Shown: in pieces, positions 9,093 through 64,000 of the stretch
Layout: the number at the start of each line of letters is the position of its first letter
Numbering within the stretch: the stretch's first letter is position 1
Source of the DNA: Halichondria panicea
Taxonomy: Eukaryota > Porifera > Demospongiae > Suberitida > Halichondriidae
Direction of reading: 5' to 3'
NCBI RefSeq assembly: GCF_963675165.1
Contig: NC_087383.1
Span: forward strand, 2,014,979 to 2,078,978
Length of the DNA stretch: 64,000 bases
Program-made: the position numbers and the translations under genes
Notes under the pieces: generated by a model
Database searches by the model: none
Told to the model about the DNA's origin: nothing
The model's input: the letters and a program-made list of their open reading frames with translations, nothing else

Positions 9093-12043
9093 ATGGCCAC
9101 TAAAGAGCAGAACCAAGGTATAAAGACTGTCATGTTTCCTATAAAGGATAAACCCAATGATTGCTAAAGCATAAAACCCTCATTGGTGATTGCTAATCTT
9201 GTGTGCTTGCTATCTATTTCAGAGCTCACAATTGACGATCTGAAGACAGAAATGAAACTGACTGATGAGCAGCTCAATACAGCAATAAAGGAACCAGATT
9301 TACCCGAGTTAGCAGCATGTTTCGACAATGTTCACAAAGGCTATCTTGAAAAATTGGAGCTCTCACCTGGAGAGCAAACTGACGTGAGGACTAGAGCATA
9401 TGTAGATGGCACTCTGGCAGGAATGTTGCTGGCTTTGAAATTCTGGATTCTGACCAACAGACAAGACGCCACTTTCCAAGCTCTGCTACTCATCATACTC
9501 TCCCTGCTCAAAGAAGACGTTGCTGTTCGAGTGTGCAAGTACTTGTCTGACAAATGTGAGTCTGTTATGTGAGAGTGTGGTCATTGTGGTACCATACGTT
9601 GTGGGAGTGATTGCAACCAAATAAGGGACTCTTCAACTTAATTGCTATTGTTACACATACAATTCTGTATTAACTATCACCAGGAATAGTACTCACCTAT
9701 TGTTTTGTTTCCCCAGACTCCACCACCTCGTGTCCCCCCTCCCGAGAGAGGGTCCTGCTGAACCACAAGCTGTCCTCGTACAGGGACTACCTACAAAGTC
9801 GCTACAGAGCACGAGTATCCACATCAGCCACACAATGGCCTCCTGTTCCAACAAACAAAGTCTTCAAACTGGCCATGATTCAGAAGGAGAAAATACAGAG
9901 AGGAAGAATCGACGATGAATTTGTTAAACTAACAATTACGGGGAAAATTGATGACATTTTACTTTTAAAGACTCCTGTTAACTTGACTAACATTTTCTCT
10001 GAGATTGGGGATAGACGAAACTTTGTGTTGATTGAAGGAGCTCCCGGCTCTGGCAAGAGCACCCTTGCTCTACACATCTGTCAGGAGTGGGCAAAGGGGA
10101 AACTGTTCCAAAAGTTCGATATTGCAATCCTCGTGAAACTGAGAGATCCCCTTGTTAGAGAAGCAAAGACAATTGCTGACGTACTTCCCTGCATTGATAC
10201 GGCCGTGGCTAACAAGACAGAGGCAGTTATAAAATCACTGTATGGCAAAGGTGTACTGTGGGTGCTAGACGGATGGGACGAGCTTCCTTCTGACCTCCCT
10301 AGAGACTCAATCATCAACAAACTAATTCGACCAGACATGTCACAAAAAGGAGCCCTACACGAATCAGCTGTGATTGTAACATCTCGACCATCATCTTCGG
10401 CTGAGCTCCACCCACTAGTGTCGTCCAGGGTAGAAGTGTTAGGGTTCACTCCACATCAACTAGAACAGTATTTTACCGAGTGTCTGAATGGTGACTCACA
10501 AGCTGTGCAGACTCTACTGGAGAGAATTCGAGAGAACCCAGTGGTAGAAGGTAGCTGCTACCTCCCCCTCAATGCTTCCATCATCGTTAATTGCTTCTTG
10601 TCTGATAACCACTCACTCCCAACATCCAACCACGGGATATTCATATCAGTTGTCCAGAGCTCTCTCAAGAGATACCTCAAGGAGAAGTTGAGGAAGACCA
10701 TTCCAGTGGGAAACATCACATCCCCAGACTCACTGCCCTCGGAAATCAGAACACAGACCGTACAAATGTGTCAACTTGCATATCATGGGATTGAAAAAAA
10801 TAAAGCAACATTTACTGACGGTGATTTGGCCGCTCTTCACATTACGAAGGAGATTTCAAACGTTGGATTATTACAAACTGTTCCCAGCATCATTAGCGAT
10901 GGTGATCTGGTTTACTACTGCTTTCTCCACCTGTCTATTCAAGAGCTACTAGCAGCAATCCACATCTCTCTCATGCCTCCCAAGCAACAAATTTCTGTAT
11001 TCCAGAAGCTCTTCGGGAATCCTCGATTCAGTGCAGTCTTCCAGTTTTATGCTGGTATCACCAAACTGAGTACTAGTAGACCAATCCTCAGTTTGCTACC
11101 TCGATTCTTGTGTCCAGTTCCAGCCACTGTTTTTGATCTGGTCAGAAAGGTTGTCAAAAATAAGAAAGAGAAAGATTATGGTGAGCCGAAGCCCCTTTTG
11201 TTGTCCCTCATCAATTGTTTGTACGAAGCTGAAGACTCGCGACTGTGTGTGTTTGTGGCTAATCTTCTTAATCACAATCTATATCTTGATTACACTACAA
11301 TGAATCCTATTGACTGCCTCTCTGTTGGATATTTCGTATCAGCTTGTTCCAACACCAGTAATGGATTCATACTTAGCCTCAACAATTGCTCTATTGGTGA
11401 CCAAGGCTGCAAATTTCTGGCCCGAGGACTCTCCAAGTGTCCCAACTCTAATAATGATATTCCTACAGCAGGGATACACATCGCTGAGATTATCGAGAAC
11501 ATTAGTTCAATATCTGAATTGAATTTGTCTGATAATGCCATTGGTAACAGTGGGCTTAGCACACTCTGTGATGCCTTGTCAACTAACACATCATTAAAGA
11601 GCCTGAACCTGACCAATTGCTCACTAACAATATCAGACGACAATGGAGCTGCCCTCTATCAACTTCTGAATACAAACAATTCCCTCGAATATCTTAGTTT
11701 GTATGGTAACACAGTGACTAGCTGTCGTCACATTGCTGCTGGACTTGCAGTCAATAAGACTCTGAGAACATTGGACTTGAATTCCTGTGCACTGACTGAT
11801 CAGAGTATCGAGGAGCTATCAACTGGACTGATCAACAAGATTAAAGCACTGTACATATGGGATAATGACTCAATAACAGAAGATGGAATGAAGACGCTTG
11901 CCAGACATCTAACCACCCACTGCTCTGAACTGACAGCATTGTGGATACCCAGACACCTAATATCCTGTATCGAGACAGTATTCAGGGACACTCACAAAGA
12001 GAGGAAGAGAAATGGACTACCCGAGATTTATTGTGTTAATTAG
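9093..12043 (+). CDS. NLR-1: Death-like / NACHT / LRR receptor, intact
   Basis: Three exons are supported by GT-AG sites and continuous phase: 9093-9117, 9223-9555 and 9717-12043, giving 894 residues. Exon 1 encodes MATKEQNQ with a G at -3 and +4 around the ATG. Exon 2 (about residues 9-119) has a Death-like helical pattern (LELSPGEQ, then an ALKFW-type core and SLLKEDVAVRVCKYL). Exon 3 carries a linker (YRDYLQSRY, WPPVP), the NACHT P-loop GAPGSGKS at residues 227-234, Walker B VLWVLDGWDEL at 299-309, a helical segment with FLHLSIQELLAA near 522-533, and NLR-type LRRs from about 641. In the family these are cytosolic STAND ATPases that oligomerise on ligand sensing and recruit Death-fold adaptors. 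The gene sits head-to-head with EFR3 copy 1 and is followed by a piggyBac-like insertion. The domain calls are firm; the ligand is unknown. Confidence 0.96.
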
Positions 12044-23521: not shown

Positions 23522-26500
23522 ATGGCCACTAAAGAGCAGAACCAAGGTATAAAGACTGTCATGTTTCCTATAAAGGATAAACCCAATGATTGCTAAAGCA
23601 TAAAACCCTCATTGGTGATTGCTAACCTTGTGTGCTTGCTATCTATTTCAGAGCTCACAATTGACGATCTGAAGACAGAAATGAAACTGACTGATGAGCA
23701 GCTCAATACAGCAATAAAGGAACCAGATCTACCCGAGTTAGCAGCATGTTTCGACAATGTTCACAAAGGCTATCTTGAAAAATTGGAGCTCTCACCTGGA
23801 GAGCAAACTGACGTGAGGACTAGAGCATATGTAGATGGCACTCTGGCAGGAATGTTGCTGGCTTTGAAATTCTGGATTCTGACCAACGGACAAGACGCCA
23901 CTTTCCAAGCTCTGCTACTCATCATACTCTCCCTGCTTAAAGAAGACGTTGCTGTTCGAGTGTGCAAGTACTTGTCTGACAAATGTGAGTCTGTCATGTG
24001 AGAGTGTGGTCATTGTGATACCATACGTTGTGGGAGTGATTGCAACCAAATAAGGGACTCTTCAACTTAATTGCTATTGTTACACATACAATTCTCTATT
24101 AACTATCACCAGGAATGGTACTCACCTATTGTTTTGTTTCCCCAGACTCCACCTCGTGTCCCCCCTCCCGAGAGAGGGTCCTGCTGAACCACAAGCTGTC
24201 CTCGTACAGGGACTACCTACAAAGTCGCTACAGAACACAAGTATCCACTTCAGCTACACAATGGCCTCCTGTCCCAACAAAGAAATGTTTCAAACTAGCC
24301 ATGATTCAGAAGGAGGAAATACAGAGAGGAAGAATCGACGATGAATTTGTTAGGCTATCAATCACAGGAAAAATTGACGATATTTTACTTCAAAAAACTC
24401 CAGTTAACTTGACTAACATTTTCTCTGAGATTGGAAATAGACGAAACTTTGTGTTGATTGAAGGAGCTCCCGGCTCTGGCAAGAGCACCCTTGCTCTACA
24501 CATCTGTCAGGAGTGGGCAGAGGGAAAACTGTTCCAAGAATTCGATATTGCAATCCTCGTGAAACTGAGAGATCCCCTCGTTAGAGAAGCCATTACAATT
24601 TCTGACTTACTTCCCTGCACACACAAAGCGATGGCTAATGAAACAGAAACTGCAATTATGTCACTGTACGGCAAAGGTGTACTGTGGGTGCTGGACGGAT
24701 GGGACGAACTTCCTTCTGACCTCCCTAGAGACTCAATCATCAACAAACTAATTCGACCAGACATGTCACGAGAAAGTCCACTACACGAATCAGCTGTAAT
24801 TGTAACATCTCGCCCGTCGTCTTCAGCTAAGCTCCACCCACGTGTATCGTCCAGGGTGGAGGTGTTGGGGTTCACTCCACATGAACTAGAACAGTATTTC
24901 AAGGAGTGTCTGAAAGGTGACTCACAAGCTGTGCAGACTCTACTGGAGAGAATTCGAGAGAACCCAGTGGTAGAAGGTAGTTGCTACCTCCCCCTCAATG
25001 CTTCCATTGTCGTTAATTGCTTTCTTTCTGATAACCACTCACTCCCCACATCCAACCACGGGATATTCATATCAGTTATCCAAAGCTCTCTCAAGAGATA
25101 CCTCCAGGATAGGTTGGGGAAGACCACTCCAGTGGGAGACATCACATCCCCAGACTCACTGCCCTCGGAAATCAGAACACAGACCGTACAAATGTGTCAA
25201 CTTGCATATCATGGGATTGAAGCCAACAAGGCGACATTTACTGACGGTGATTTGGCCGCTCTTCGCATTACGAAGGAGATTTCAAACGTTGGATTATTAC
25301 AAACTGTTCCCAGTATCATTAGCGATGGTCATTTGGTTTACTACTGCTTTCTCCACCTGTCTATTCAAGAGCTACTAGCAGCAATCCACATCTCTCTCAT
25401 GTCTCCCAAGCAACAAATTTCTGTATTCCAGAAGCTCTTCGGGAATCCTCGATTCAGTGCAGTCTTCCAGTTTTATGCTGGTATTACCAAACTGAGTACT
25501 AGTAGACCAATCCTCAGCTTGCTACCTCGATTCTTGTGTCCAGTTCCAGCTACTGTTTTTGATCTGGTCAGAAAGGTTGTCAAAAGTGAGAAAGAGAAGA
25601 AGTACGGTGAGCCGAAGCCCCTTTTGTTGTCCCTCATCAATTGTTTGTACGAAGCTGAAGACTCGTCACTGTGTGTGTTTGTGGCTAATCTTCTTAATCA
25701 CAATCTGCATCTTGATAACACTACAATGAATCCTATTGACTGCCTCTCTGTTGGATATTTCGCATCAGCTTGTTCCAACACCAGTAATGGATTCACACTT
25801 AGCCTCATAAGTTGCTCTATTGGTGACCAAGGCTGCAAATTTCTGGCCCGAGGGCTTTCCAAGTGTTCACAGAGTGAGATTAGTCTTAATCTTTCTAATA
25901 ATGATTTTCAAGAAGAAGGGATACACCACATCGCTGAGATTATCGAGAACACTAGTTCAATATCTAAATTGGTTTTGTCTTTTAATGCCATTGGCAACAG
26001 TGGACTTAGCACACTCTGTGAGGCCTTGTCAACTAACACATCATTAAAGAGTCTCGATTTCTCTGAATGCTCACTATCTCTCAACGATCACGGAGCAATC
26101 CCTCGACTACTGAGCACAAACACTACTCTTGAAGACCTCACATTGTCACGCAATGTTATTGGTAACACTGAGCTGAAGAATATCTGTGAGGCCTTGTCAA
26201 CTATCACATCATTAAAGAGCCTGAACCTGACCAATTGCTCACTAACAATATCAGACGACAATGGAGCTGCCCTCTATCAACTTCTGAATACAAACAATTC
26301 CCTCGAACATCTTAATTTGTCTAATAACACAGTGACTAGCTGTCGTCACATTGCTGCTGAACTTGCAGTCAATAAAACTCTGAGAACATTGTACTTGGAT
26401 TTCTGTCAACTGACTGATCAGAGTATCGAGGAGCTATCAACTGGACTGATCAACAAGATTGAAAGATTGGACATTGATGGTAATGACTCAATAACAGAAG

Positions 26501-26652
26501 ATGGAATGAAGACGCTTGCCAGACATCTAACCACCCACTGCTCTGAACTGACACGATTGTGGATACCCAGACACCTAAGATCCTGTATCGAGACAGTATT
26601 CAGGGACGCTAACAAAGAGAGGAAGAGAAATGGACTACCTGAGATTGTTTAA
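23522..26652 (+). CDS. NLR-2: Death-like / NACHT / LRR receptor, intact, with extra LRRs
   Basis: Exons are 23522-23546, 23652-23984 and 24146-26652 (954 residues), with the same splice phases as NLR-1. The P-loop GAPGSGKS is at residues 226-233 and Walker B WVLDGWDEL starts near 300. The Death-like exon is nearly identical to NLR-1. The LRR block is longer: two extra 28-residue repeats occur around 26060-26220 (LDFSECSLSLNDHG and LTLSRNVIGNTELK). NLR-2 also keeps a complete LNLSNNDFQEEGIHH repeat where NLR-1 and NLR-3 carry a shortened PNSNNDIPTAGIH version. It is therefore either the fuller ancestral form or an expanded one. It lies head-to-head with a gag-like ORF and the remnant EFR3 copy 2. 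No stop or frameshift was seen. Confidence 0.96.
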
Positions 26653-36183: not shown

Positions 36184-39114
36184 ATGGCCACTAAAGAGCA
36201 GAACCAAGGTATAAAGACAGTCATGTTTACTACAAAGGATAAACACAATGATTGCTAAAGCATAAAACCCTCAATGGTGATTGCTAACCTTGTGTGCTTG
36301 CTTATCTATCTTCAGAGCTCACAATTGATGATCTGAAGACAGAAATGAAACTGACTGATGAGCAGCTCAATACAGCAATAAAGGAACCAGATCTACCCGA
36401 GTTAGCAGCATGTTTCGACAATGTTCACAATGGCTATCTTGAAAAACTGGAGCTCTCACCTGGAGAACAAACTGACGTGAGGACTAGAGCATTTGTAGAT
36501 GGCACTCTGGCAGGAATGTTGCTGGCTTTGAAATTCTGGATACTAACCAACGGACTAGATGCCACTTTCCAAGCTCTGCTACTCATCATACTCTCCCTAC
36601 TCAAAGAAGACGTTGCTGTTCGAGTGTGCAAGTACTTGTCTGACAAATGTGAGTCTGTCATGTGAGAGTGTGGTCATTGTGGTACCATACGTTGTGGGAG
36701 TGATTGCAACCAAATAAGGGACTCTTCAACTTAATTGCTATTGTTACACATACAGTTCTCTTTTACTATCACCAGGAATGGTACTCACCTATTGTTTTGT
36801 TTCCCCAGACTGCACCACCTCGTGTCCCCCCTCCCGAGAGAGGGTCCTGCTGAACCACAAGCTGTCTTCGTACAGGGACTATCTACAAAGTTTCTACAGA
36901 GCACAAGTATCCACATCATCCACACAATGGCCTCCTGTCCCAACAAACAAAGTCTTCAAACTGGCCATGATTCAGAAGGAGAAAATACAGAGAGGAAGAA
37001 TCGACGATGAATTTGTTAAACTAACAATTACGGGGAAAATTGATGACATTTTACTTTTAAAGACTCCTGTTAACTTGACTAAGATTTTCTCTGAGATTGG
37101 GGATAGACGAAACTTTGTGTTGATTGAAGGAGCTCCCGGCTCTGGCAAGAGCACCCTTGCTCTACACATCTGTCAGGAGTGGGCAAAGGGGAAACTGTTC
37201 CAAGAGTTCAATATTGCAATCCTCGTGAAACTGAGAGATCCCCTCGTTAGAGAAGCAAAGACAATTGCTGACATACTTCCCTGCATTGATACGGCCGTGG
37301 CTAACGAGACAGAGGCAGAAATAAAATCACTGTATGGCAAAGGTGTACTGTGGGTGCTGGATGGATGGGACGAGCTTCCTTCTGACCTCCCTAGAGACTC
37401 AATCATCAACAAACTAATCCGACTAGACATGTCACAAAAAGGAGCCCTACACGAATCAGCTGTGATTGTAACATCTCGACCGTCATCTTCGGCTGAGCTC
37501 CACCCACGTGTATCGTCCAGGGTGGAAGTGTTGGGGTTCACTCCACATCAACTAGAACAGTATTTTACCGAATGTCTGAATGGTGACTCACAAGCTGTGC
37601 ATACTCTATTGGAGAGAATTCGAGAGAACCCAGTGGTAGAAGGTAGCTGTTACCTCCCCCTCAATGCTTCCATCATCGTTAATTGCTTCCTTTCTGACAA
37701 CCACTCCCTCCCAACATCCAACCACGGGATATTCACCACAGTTGTCCAGAGCTCTCTCAAGAGATACCTCAAGGAGAAGTTGGGGAAGACCACTCCAGTG
37801 GGAGACATCACATCCCCAGACTCACTGCCCTCGGAAATTAGAACACAGACCGTACAAATGTGTCAACTTGCATATCATGGGATTGAACAAAATAAAGCGA
37901 CATTTACTGATGGTGATTTGGCTGCTCTTTGCATTCCGAAGGAGATTTCAAACGTTGGATTATTACAAACTGTTCCCAGTATCATTAGCGATGGTGATCT
38001 GGTTTACTACTGCTTTCTCCACCTGTCTATTCAAGAGCTACTGGCAGCAATCCACATCTCTCTCATGCCTCCCAAGCAACAAATTTCTGTATTCCAGAAG
38101 CTCTTCGGGAATCCTCGATTCAGTGCAGTCTTCCAGTTTTACGCTGGTATCACCAAACTGAGAACTAGTAGACCAATCCTCAGCTTGCTACCTCGATTCT
38201 TGTGTCCAGTTCCAGCCACTGTTTTTGATCTGGTCAGAAAGGTTGTCAAAAATAAGCCGACGATCTTTTTGTTGTCCCTCATCAATTGTTTATACGAAGC
38301 TGAAGACTCGCAACTGTGTTTGTTTGTGGCTAATCTTCTTAATCACTATCTAGATCTTGATCGCACTACAATGAATCCTATTGACTGCCTCTCTGTTGGA
38401 TATTTCGCATCAGCTTGTTCCAATAGCAGTAATGGATTCACACTTAGCCTCAACAATTGCTCTATTGGTGACCAAGGCTGCAAATTTCTGGCCCGAGGAC
38501 TCTCCAAGTGTCCCAACTCTAATAATGATATTCCTACAGCAGGGATACACATCGCTGAGATTATCGAGAACACTAGTTCAATATCTAAATTGGATTTGTC
38601 TAATAATGCCATTGGTAACAGTGGACTTTTCGAACTCTGTGCGGCCTTGTCCACTAACACATCATTAAAGAGCCTGAACCTGCGCAGTTGCTCACTAACA
38701 ATATCAGACGACAATGGAGCTGCCCTTTATCAACTTCTGAATACAAACAATTCCCTCGAATATCTTGATTTGTCTGGTAACACAGTGACTAGCTGTCGTC
38801 ACATTGCTGCTGGACTTGCAGTCAATAAGACTCTGAGAACATTGGGCTTGTATAACTGTAAACTGACTGATCAGAGTATCGAGGAGCTATCAACTGGACT
38901 GATCAACAAGATTAAATCACTGAACATTTATGGTAATGCCTCAATAACAGAAGATGGAATGAAGACGCTTGCCAGACATCTAACCACCCACTGCTCTGAA
39001 CTGACACGATTGTTGATACCCTACCACCTAATATCCTGTATCGAGACAGTATTCAGGGACGCTAACGAAGAGAGGAAGAGAAATGGACTACCCAAGATTA
39101 ATGTTGTTTATTAA
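36184..39114 (+). CDS. NLR-3: Death-like / NACHT / LRR receptor, intact
   Basis: Exons are 36184-36208, 36316-36648 and 36809-39114, giving 887 residues. The Death-like exon, the P-loop GAPGSGKS (227-234), Walker B DGWDEL and the LRR order match NLR-1. Compared with NLR-1 it is shorter by seven residues after VVKNK (PTIFLLSL instead of a KEK-rich stretch, near 38250). LRR strand-face residues differ from both other intact copies (for example LGLYNCKL, LNIYGNAS). Unlike NLR-1, -2 and -5, its upstream sequence is not the gag-like/EFR3 block but a stretch with a GTGGGTGT inverted repeat, so it may be expressed differently. Downstream are a composite repeat element and two IQGAP-tail fragments. 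Confidence 0.96.
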
Positions 39115-63187: not shown

Positions 63188-64000
63188 ATGGCCACTAAAG
63201 AGCAGAACCAAGGTATAAAGACTGTCATGTTTCCTATAAAGGATAAACCCAATGATTGCTAAAGCATAAAACTCTCATTGGTGATTGCTAACCTTGTGTG
63301 CTTGCTTATCTATTCTCAGAGCTCACAATTGACGATCTGAAGACAGAAATGAAACTGACTGATGAGCAGCTCAATACAGCAATAAAGGAACCAGATCTAC
63401 CCGAGTTAGCAGCATGTTTCGATAACACTGATGATTATCTTGAAAAGCTGGAGCTGTCGCCTGGACAGAAAACTGACGTCAGCGAAGTGAAGGCTAAAAC
63501 ACGTCTAAACCGCACTCAAGCCGGAATAAAACTTGCCCTAGAATACTGGCAGAACAAGAACCAACTACAAGCCACCTTCCAAGCTCTGCTACTCATCATA
63601 CTCTCCCTGCTCAAAGGAGACGTTGCTGTTCAAGTGTGCAAGTACTTGTCTGACAAATGTGAGTCTGTTATGTAAGAGTGTGGTCATTGTGGTACCATAC
63701 GTTGTGGGAGTGATTGCAACCAAATAAGGGACTTTCAACTTAATTGCTATTGTTACACATACAATTCTCTATTAACTATCACCAGGAATGGTACTCACCT
63801 ATTGTTTTGTTTCTCCAGACTCCACCACCTCGTGTCCCCACTCTCAAGAGAGGGTCCTGCTGAACCACAAGCTGTCCTCGTACAGGGACTACCTACAAAG
63901 TCGCTACAGAGAACCAGACTCCACATCAGCCACACAATGGCCTCCCGTCTCAACAAACAAAGTCTTTAAACTGGCCATGATTCAGAAAGAGAAAATACAG
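63188..64000 (+). CDS. NLR-5: 5' part of an NLR with divergent Death-like core (runs off window)
   Basis: Exon 1 is 63188-63212, exon 2 is 63320-63658 (339 nt, two codons longer than in other copies), and exon 3 starts at 63819 and continues past the window end. The exon-2 ends match the other NLRs almost exactly, but roughly 63420-63570 is replaced by a different sequence encoding SPGQKTDVSEVKAKTRLNRT and an ALEYWQNKNQLQ helix. The Death-like hydrophobic pattern, including the core W, is retained. The linker WPPVSTNKVFKLAMIQKEKI is present. The P-loop lies beyond the window, so whether the gene is intact is unknown. Upstream it shares the gag-like/EFR3 head-to-head layout of copies 1 and 2. 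Confidence 0.92.

Follow-up and report, generated by a model that had tools for sequence, protein, structure and literature searches.

Probable diversifying selection on the predicted concave leucine-rich repeat face of a tandem NACHT-LRR gene array in the sponge Halichondria panicea

The NACHT-LRR (NLR) genes in a 64,000-nucleotide stretch of the genome of the sponge Halichondria panicea (contig NC_087383.1, referred to as C7, positions 2014979 to 2078978, in a 131-Mb assembly; hereafter called the window) belong to a family whose amino acid variation is concentrated on the exposed "x" positions of the leucine-rich repeat (LRR) strands. The explanation that we favor, with a probability of roughly 85%, is strong and recurrent diversifying selection, acting on what is predicted to be the concave face of the LRR domain, in an array that gene conversion or unequal exchange keeps reshuffling. 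Three long plus-strand open reading frames (ORFs) are present in the window (9674 to 12043, 24103 to 26652, and 36718 to 39114), all of which encode a NACHT domain and LRRs, and represent NLR-1, NLR-2, and NLR-3 (genes 1 to 3). A whole-genome search with gene 1 as the query (57 of 328 candidates scored) gave 57 near-full-length NLR copies, a number that is a lower bound, with 56 on C7 (1.80 to 4.19 Mb, i.e., 2.4 Mb) and 1 on C1.

We defined x positions as x3, x5, x7, x8, and x10 of the motif LxxLxLxx(N/C)xL, which, for eight repeats, yields 40 sites. In NLR-1, the relevant features are as follows (window coordinates).

11267..12028, plus strand: LRR region of NLR-1, ribonuclease-inhibitor-type as judged from the gene-2 model and its PDB match, holding the hypervariable x positions
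11267..11302, plus strand: strand motif of R0, LNHNLYLDYTTM, an additional N-terminal repeat with variable x5, x7, and x8
11360..11395, plus strand: strand motif of R1, NGFILSLNNCSI
11507..11542, plus strand: strand motif of R3, SISELNLSDNAI
11591..11626, plus strand: strand motif of R7, SLKSLNLTNCSL
11681..11716, plus strand: strand motif of R8, SLEYLSLYGNTV
11759..11794, plus strand: strand motif of R9, TLRTLDLNSCAL, for which the 53 copies have 51 different five-residue x words
11837..11872, plus strand: strand motif of R10, KIKALYIWDNDS, for which the 53 copies have 52 different x words
11927..11962, plus strand: strand motif of R11, ELTALWIPRHLI

Family-wide counts refer to 53 copies, after removal of L008, L028, and L057 (which duplicate another copy exactly or almost exactly) and of L043; silent linkage and the first codon-model run were based on 54 copies, and the block-switch and upstream pair comparisons were based on all 57. 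At x sites, the proportion of nonsynonymous differences (pN) was 0.315 (0.258 to 0.370), with a proportion of synonymous differences (pS) of 0.084 (confidence interval, 0.047 to 0.123). The LRR region had a pS of 0.071, and its framework of leucine, asparagine, and cysteine positions had a pN of 0.028. In the NACHT part, pN was 0.052 and pS was 0.149, which means that amino acid change at x lies above even this higher silent yardstick. Expressed as dN(x)/dS, the excess was 5.5 for the whole LRR, ranging from 2.8 (R3) to 15.4 (R9) by repeat, and 2.5 when NACHT silent divergence was used as the denominator. The number of residue types per site was 5.4, 7.5, 7.6, 8.5, and 3.0 for x3, x5, x7, x8, and x10, respectively, and 1.4, 1.5, and 1.9 for scaffold positions L4, L6, and N9. 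Mean entropy at x was 1.67 bits, a value that none of 20,000 equal-size random sets of LRR sites approached (maximum, ≤0.87), and x positions account for 21 of the 30 most variable of 767 codons. Entropy reached 1.5 bits or more at 41 of these 767 sites; 26 of them are in the LRR, 24 being x positions, and 15 are outside it.

The pattern had initially been noted in the three genes of the window by a first-pass annotation, which attributed it to diversifying selection or to a targeted mutation or conversion process. The residues and codons that it quoted for R9 are exact (GAC/TAC/GGC, AAT/GAT/TAT, TCC/TTC/AAC, and GCA/CAA/AAA in genes 1/2/3), as is the identity of the framework codons TTG, TTG, and TGT between them. 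Differences among the three genes do concentrate on x: the amino acid differs at 27 of 40 x codons versus 20 of 214 other LRR codons (Fisher p = 2e-14), and the changes at x are mostly nonsynonymous, with 92.8 nonsynonymous differences (Nd) over 285 sites and 1.2 synonymous differences (Sd) over 75. Corresponding values were Nd 2.0/266 and Sd 6.0/94 for framework codons, Nd 48.5/1209 and Sd 21.5/357 for the remaining LRR, and Nd 157.5/3502 and Sd 154.5/1091 for the NACHT part, which, being larger, contains more amino acid differences in absolute terms than the x codons do. Some parts of that description needed adjustment. The variable region had been placed at 11366 to 11970, and the pattern is indeed found there, but it begins earlier, with R0, and ends at approximately 11962. 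The background, called near-identical, has a mean nucleotide identity of 92% among the 53 copies and is not near-identical throughout. Framework codons, described as identical, are conserved in their amino acids but do contain silent differences (pS among the three genes, 0.064). Finally, most x positions are hot, but x2 is quiet, x10 is mostly mild, and x7 is almost constant in R8 and R11.

To describe selection per site, we used a purpose-written grid codon model that allows the nonsynonymous rate (beta) to exceed the silent rate (alpha), together with four null simulations, two of which had free recombination between blocks. For the LRR, allowing beta>alpha gave twice the log-likelihood difference (2dlnL) of 473, compared with 8 to 9 in the nulls without recombination and 25 to 36 in those with free recombination. 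A posterior probability above 0.95 was obtained for 32 of 40 x sites versus 17 of 214 other LRR sites (odds ratio, 46; p = 6e-21). Mean LRR rates were 5.18 at x, 0.40 at non-x positions, and 0.53 for silent change, x thus evolving at about 10 times the silent rate. This paralogue-wide per-site test strongly supports the proposal of diversifying selection at exposed strand positions, and the outcome that would have spoken against it, namely, changes at silent and buried sites matching those at x in frequency, did not occur among the paralogues. Solvent-exposed residues are, as is established for the LRR fold, generally less constrained than buried leucines, and one might suppose that this freedom is all that the variation at x reflects. 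Neutral sites would, however, change at the silent rate, whereas x pN clearly exceeds pS in both the LRR and the NACHT part, the x and NACHT intervals do not overlap, and beta>alpha is favored by the margin given above; relaxed constraint is the least probable of the explanations considered here.

The first codon-model run was performed when R0 was still unlabeled. Outside the labeled repeats, it returned strong signals at codons 518, 520, and 521, with 521 being the strongest of those; structure models place a strand at this location, and x5, x7, and x8 of a further repeat, R0, can be assigned in the sequence NLYLDYTTM. The strong signal had singled out a strand face that was not labeled beforehand. 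Other strong unlabeled sites, e.g., 504, 748, and 754, have no strand-face explanation.

The structure model of the gene-2 LRR (mean predicted local distance difference test score [pLDDT], 85.4) comprises 11 units of a strand and a following helix, and x3-L4-x5 is located inside the strand in 11 of 11 cases. Its top PDB match was angiogenin-bound ribonuclease inhibitor (E = 1.2e-13; 20% identity), with the LRRs of NLRP3 and NOD2 also among the matches; an earlier full-length model was weak outside the LRR (pLDDT, 53.5). In ribonuclease-inhibitor-type LRRs, the x residues of the strands face the concave side, and the hypervariable x residues are accordingly predicted to form the concave face of the modeled domain.

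In the second LRR (approximately 11429 to 11506 in gene 1), about 7 residues including the strand (SNNDIPT) are missing from most copies in the part of the alignment listed; L039, L050, and others retain this strand (EISLNLSNND). The C-terminal tail past GLPEI (12029 to 12040) ends in residues that are highly variable in sequence and length among copies, and in many pairs the 3' flanks have changed beyond this tail.

We then considered whether mutation, rather than selection, could be focused on the x codons, be it by retro-mutagenesis resembling that of diversity-generating retroelements (DGRs), by deaminase-type hypermutation, or by a similar process, in the germ line or soma, with selection being secondary. 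The x words are almost unique to each copy (R9 and R10, see above) and silent changes around them are few (R9 block pS, 0.041), linkage within words is low, and x-codon silent change is above background in R7 and R11. Several variable codons have a fixed third base, reminiscent of NNC/NNT schemes: in R9, all but one of the 53 copies have T as the third base of x7 and all but one have C as that of x8, with 11 and 12 residue types at x7 and x8, respectively. Not every x codon has such a constant third base, however, and some third-base change is itself nonsynonymous. Third-base entropy was 0.23, 0.34, 0.55, 0.40, and 0.05 bits at x3, x5, x7, x8, and x10, respectively (background, 0.15 in the rest of the LRR and 0.27 in NACHT), far below the 0.66 to 1.33 bits of the first two bases of x3 to x8, which argues that codons are not mutated as units. 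The x-codon pS of 0.084 over 40 codons is close to the 0.069 of the rest of the LRR, and tree length was 11.05 for x first and second bases versus 1.67 for third bases of other LRR codons (6.6 times). Variability is also independent of base identity: the 37 framework positions with majority A have an entropy (H) of 0.10, and majority-G x positions are the most variable (H = 1.32), so that the DGR hallmark, variation restricted to template adenines, is not seen. Kappa, the measure of transition bias, was 1.7 at x versus 3.1 to 4.4 at third positions, a difference that saturation or selection could cause and that we do not use as evidence. In orphan LRR pieces (see below), the R11 x residues are kept in 7 of 8 copies, although these pieces are alike, probably young, and few. 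With silent change at background and framework adenines practically invariant, selection acting on ordinary mutations is the simplest reading, and targeted mutation, for which the first-pass annotation had left room, went unsupported and is improbable.

Several candidates were dropped. Untargeted hypermutation is at odds with background-level silent change at x codons and with third bases far less variable than first and second ones, adenine-targeted mutagenesis is at odds with the stable framework adenines, and assembly noise is at odds with open frames in 56 of the 57 copies (L043 has an in-frame TGA), the rarity of scaffold amino acid changes, and the nearly identical 5' flanks of the same copies.

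Besides selection, exchange between copies has probably shaped the array. The LRR is decoupled from the other parts of the gene, and neighboring blocks within it switch partners. In 29 pairs (29 genes in 11 groups) with a NACHT pS below 0.02, x residues differ at 9 to 26 of 40 sites (median, 20), compared with a median of 22 of 40 for all pairs. L023 and L034 have 3 aligned differences (plus some gaps) in 4.2 kb of upstream and NACHT sequence and then 42 in the LRR, followed by 26/196 around the C-terminal tail and 0 to 4 per 200 across the next 600 bases; farther 3', there are more differences and gaps, and the alignment is lost past approximately 1.6 kb. L023 and L043 are identical over 692 nucleotides (nt) upstream and 1,539 nt of pre-LRR coding sequence and have 43 LRR differences. 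Within the LRR, L030 and L035 have one difference through the end of R7 and 22 from R8 onward, and GNPFA TNRNS is common to L026, L031, and L043, the LRRs of which are otherwise different. Mantel correlations were 0.15 between NACHT and x distances and 0.11 between x of R0 to R7 and x of R8 to R11; silent linkage was 0.01 to 0.02 between NACHT and LRR versus 0.05 to 0.16 within NACHT. Exchange between copies, which had also been proposed, is supported in outline by this decoupling, with conversion or unequal crossing-over as its likely form.

The upstream 700 nt and N-terminal exon sequence fall into divergent classes among copies. Between L007 and L014, there are 150 differences over 649 upstream sites and 12 over 1,539 sites of pre-LRR coding sequence, a contrast indicating that the 5' end is exchanged, too. 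The upstream tree length of 5.5 mixes divergent, badly aligned classes and was not used as a clock.

In the scenario that we favor, exposed LRR strand positions would be under strong, recurrent diversifying selection and the leucine/asparagine/cysteine scaffold would be under purifying selection, while conversion or unequal exchange would keep the 5' part (N-terminal exons and NACHT) alike within groups and would join like 5' parts to different LRR blocks, giving each copy its own x combination. The predicted face may bind varied targets, microbial or self, and a rare-type advantage could drive the diversity.

Conversion might also act alone, shuffling old cassettes of the LRR that come from genes or from an orphan bank, without ongoing selection on x. 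Block switches, words such as TNRNS that are common to several copies, near-zero silent linkage between NACHT and LRR, and the presence of orphan LRR pieces on the same contig would all fit such shuffling. Old cassettes would carry silent differences nearby, yet LRR pS is low (0.071) next to the x pN of 0.315, and the 3 R9 words found in 8 orphan pieces are too few to account for 51 R9 words; we regard this explanation as very improbable. As for the pieces themselves, at least 20 orphan LRR 3' pieces (L097 to L116; 150 of 210 candidates scored) are located on C7 outside the window, some with stops or frameshifts. The 20 that were fetched form three near-identical groups (L109 to L116; L098, L099, and L103 to L108; L100 to L102) plus one single piece and look like remnants spread by duplication. 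The single piece, L097 (C7:2833799-2834077), is a partial LRR copy located 25 bases past the last matched base of gene L005 and looks as if it arose by local tandem duplication. Eight pieces at R11 contain 2 x words. Having too few x words in the pieces read, orphan cassettes were rejected as a source of the diversity. Taken as a neutral control, the pieces differ in 7 of 168 pair comparisons at x versus 19 of 4,200 elsewhere; with one x substitution in 8 copies, this control is too small to weigh and, alone, does not argue against faster change at x.

Several points weigh against diversifying selection on the strand face as a full account. In the NACHT segment, beta>alpha is also favored (2dlnL = 141; 36 of 513 sites above 0.95), and the nulls are all LRR-like. 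The recombining nulls produced 7 and 10 false sites per 254 at 0.95, which makes single-site calls outside the x class weak, and the purpose-written code was checked against only these four null simulations. The copies are paralogues of one assembly, in which duplication, conversion, and selection are mixed and pairs are nonindependent. Silent change at x codons is uneven (0.18 in R7 and 0.15 in R11 versus 0.001 to 0.09 in other repeats). Linkage between x sites is 0.079 within one repeat and lower between repeats, which implies that whole-word conversion is insufficient and that recurrent mutation at single x codons is needed as well, and a copying model placed LRR tract length at the edge of its grid (17 nt), so that this value does not delimit conversion tracts in the LRR. 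Comparison with other NLR clusters of the genome gave a mixed picture. In the C13 cluster (11 copies picked from a longer match list, 76% amino acid identity, 4 strand motifs found by pattern), entropy was 2.4 bits at x3 and 2.1 bits at x5 versus 0.1 to 0.2 at L4, L6, and N9, but the x codons had raised third-position entropy as well (0.9 to 1.3 bits versus 0.44 before the LRR), and we therefore claim no selection for C13. In the C14 set (11 of 12 fetched copies, the short L064 being dropped and L069 lying approximately 1 Mb outside the cluster; 85% identity, 3 strand motifs by pattern), x8 and x10 alone stand out. The residue pattern thus appears to be neither unique to the C7 array nor universal among clusters.

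We consider it very unlikely, too, that a dedicated process exists in this early-branching animal, in which locus-directed mutation, mainly at first and second positions, would combine with short-tract conversion on strand-face codons; near-unique R9 and R10 words, low within-word linkage, and faces that diverged despite identical NACHT sequences keep the idea in view. We know of no precedent for a process aimed mainly at first and second codon positions. If true, each gene copy, and perhaps each individual or tissue, would have receptors that are nearly its own, which would parallel the hypervariability of antibodies within innate immunity.

The genes, their domains, and neighboring features in the window are as follows.

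9093..12043, plus strand: NLR-1 gene; model exons 9093-9117, 9223-9555, and 9717-12043; 894 amino acids, GT/AG sites, spliced frame open
10025..10486, plus strand: NACHT of NLR-1 with P-loop GAPGSGKST; PF05729, residues 118-271 of P0001, 72.2 bits
24103..26652, plus strand: NLR-2, NACHT-LRR ORF with two additional LRRs (P0002, locus L050)
36718..39114, plus strand: NLR-3, NACHT-LRR ORF (P0003, locus L012)
63776..64000, plus strand: start of the match to a fourth paralogue, L004, truncated at the window edge (full match, C7:2078754-2081111)

PF05729 matched NLR-1, NLR-2, and NLR-3 with E values of 5.7e-20, 1.5e-21, and 1.4e-19, respectively, and Pfam LRR_6 matches were found in the NLR genes. 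On the basis of these domain matches, we classify the genes as a large tandem array of animal-type NACHT-LRR genes (NLR, STAND NTPase). The predicted NLR-1 protein consists, in order, of an N-terminal region of approximately 118 amino acids, NACHT, helical domains, and the LRR. Its two short exons have GT/AG borders and continue, without a change of frame, into the large exon at 9717. A Death domain was the first guess for these N-terminal exons; the guess found no support, the approximately 118 amino acids having zero Pfam family matches at an E value of 1. Within NACHT, pS peaks at codons 150 to 200 (approximately 10166 to 10315 in gene 1) at 0.336, versus 0.045 to 0.266 in other 50-codon bins, which suggests that old divergent haplotypes may have been retained in an otherwise more uniform NACHT. 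Two pairs of genes are nearly or fully identical over upstream, coding, and short 3' flank sequence: L027 and L028 (C7:2139474-2142584 and 2339369-2342479) with zero differences and L007 and L008 with one. Located 200 to 300 kb apart, the members of these pairs would represent either a very recent duplication or an assembly duplicate.

The closest parallel is found in plants. Highly variable NLRs (hvNLRs) are defined by ten or more residues past an entropy cutoff of 1.5 bits. The array exceeds this number of residues, with 41 of 767 sites at or above 1.5 bits, entropy being calculated across paralogues of one genome here and across alleles in plants. Sites above the 0.95 posterior cluster on the strand face (32 of 40 x versus 17 of 214 other positions in the LRR), and, of the 41 sites with high entropy, 15 are outside the LRR. 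According to passages of PMC8226289, PMC6771003, and PMC3510248, plant hvNLRs (RPP1, RPP8, RPP13, and flax L) show entropy and positive selection on LRR x residues, plant NLRs occur as tandem copies with intergenic conversion between paralogues, and direct effector binding was shown for flax L5/L6. The sponge array resembles them in its x-residue hot spot, tandem copies, and exchange between copies and differs in having NACHT and ribonuclease-inhibitor-type repeats instead of NB-ARC. Lamprey variable lymphocyte receptors are LRR receptors with diverse strand-face residues and conversion among modules, and they are assembled somatically from donor cassettes. In the sponge, by contrast, each copy is a complete germ line gene, and little diversity was seen among the orphan pieces that were read.

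A large NACHT-LRR expansion is shared with other sponges. In Amphimedon, a large lineage-specific expansion, with some members having CARD or DEATH N termini, was reportedly described by Yuen et al. in 2014. Passages of a paper on Dysidea avara describe the same for that species (PMC12909245), and the term positive selection is absent from that paper. According to passages of a survey of then-available genomes (PMC5041008), only a 5-gene NLR cluster was present in Amphimedon, in contrast to the at least 56 copies in one 2.4-Mb stretch found here. In zebrafish, passages of PMC4852459 describe hundreds of NLR-B30.2 copies, most of which are on one chromosome arm, conversion that differs between NACHT and B30.2, positive selection on B30.2, and LRRs that are "not particularly variable." In the sponge genes, by comparison, the hot spot is the LRR strand face, and the open frame ends past the LRR. 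An open-literature search of titles and abstract openings, which did not cover Yuen et al. 2014, found no per-site selection study of sponge NLR LRRs; we claim no priority.

The analysis confirms that the strand face has clearly diversified in an animal NLR array, in the manner of plant hvNLRs. Such diversification is well documented in plants, and the zebrafish family, a large and well-described animal one, diversifies another domain. Copies that share much of the signaling part, each with a different predicted binding face, constitute a tractable test system, and the finding points to about two dozen residues for swaps in binding tests. With such a system, one can investigate whether recognition in a plant-like, gene-for-gene style was also attained by animals.

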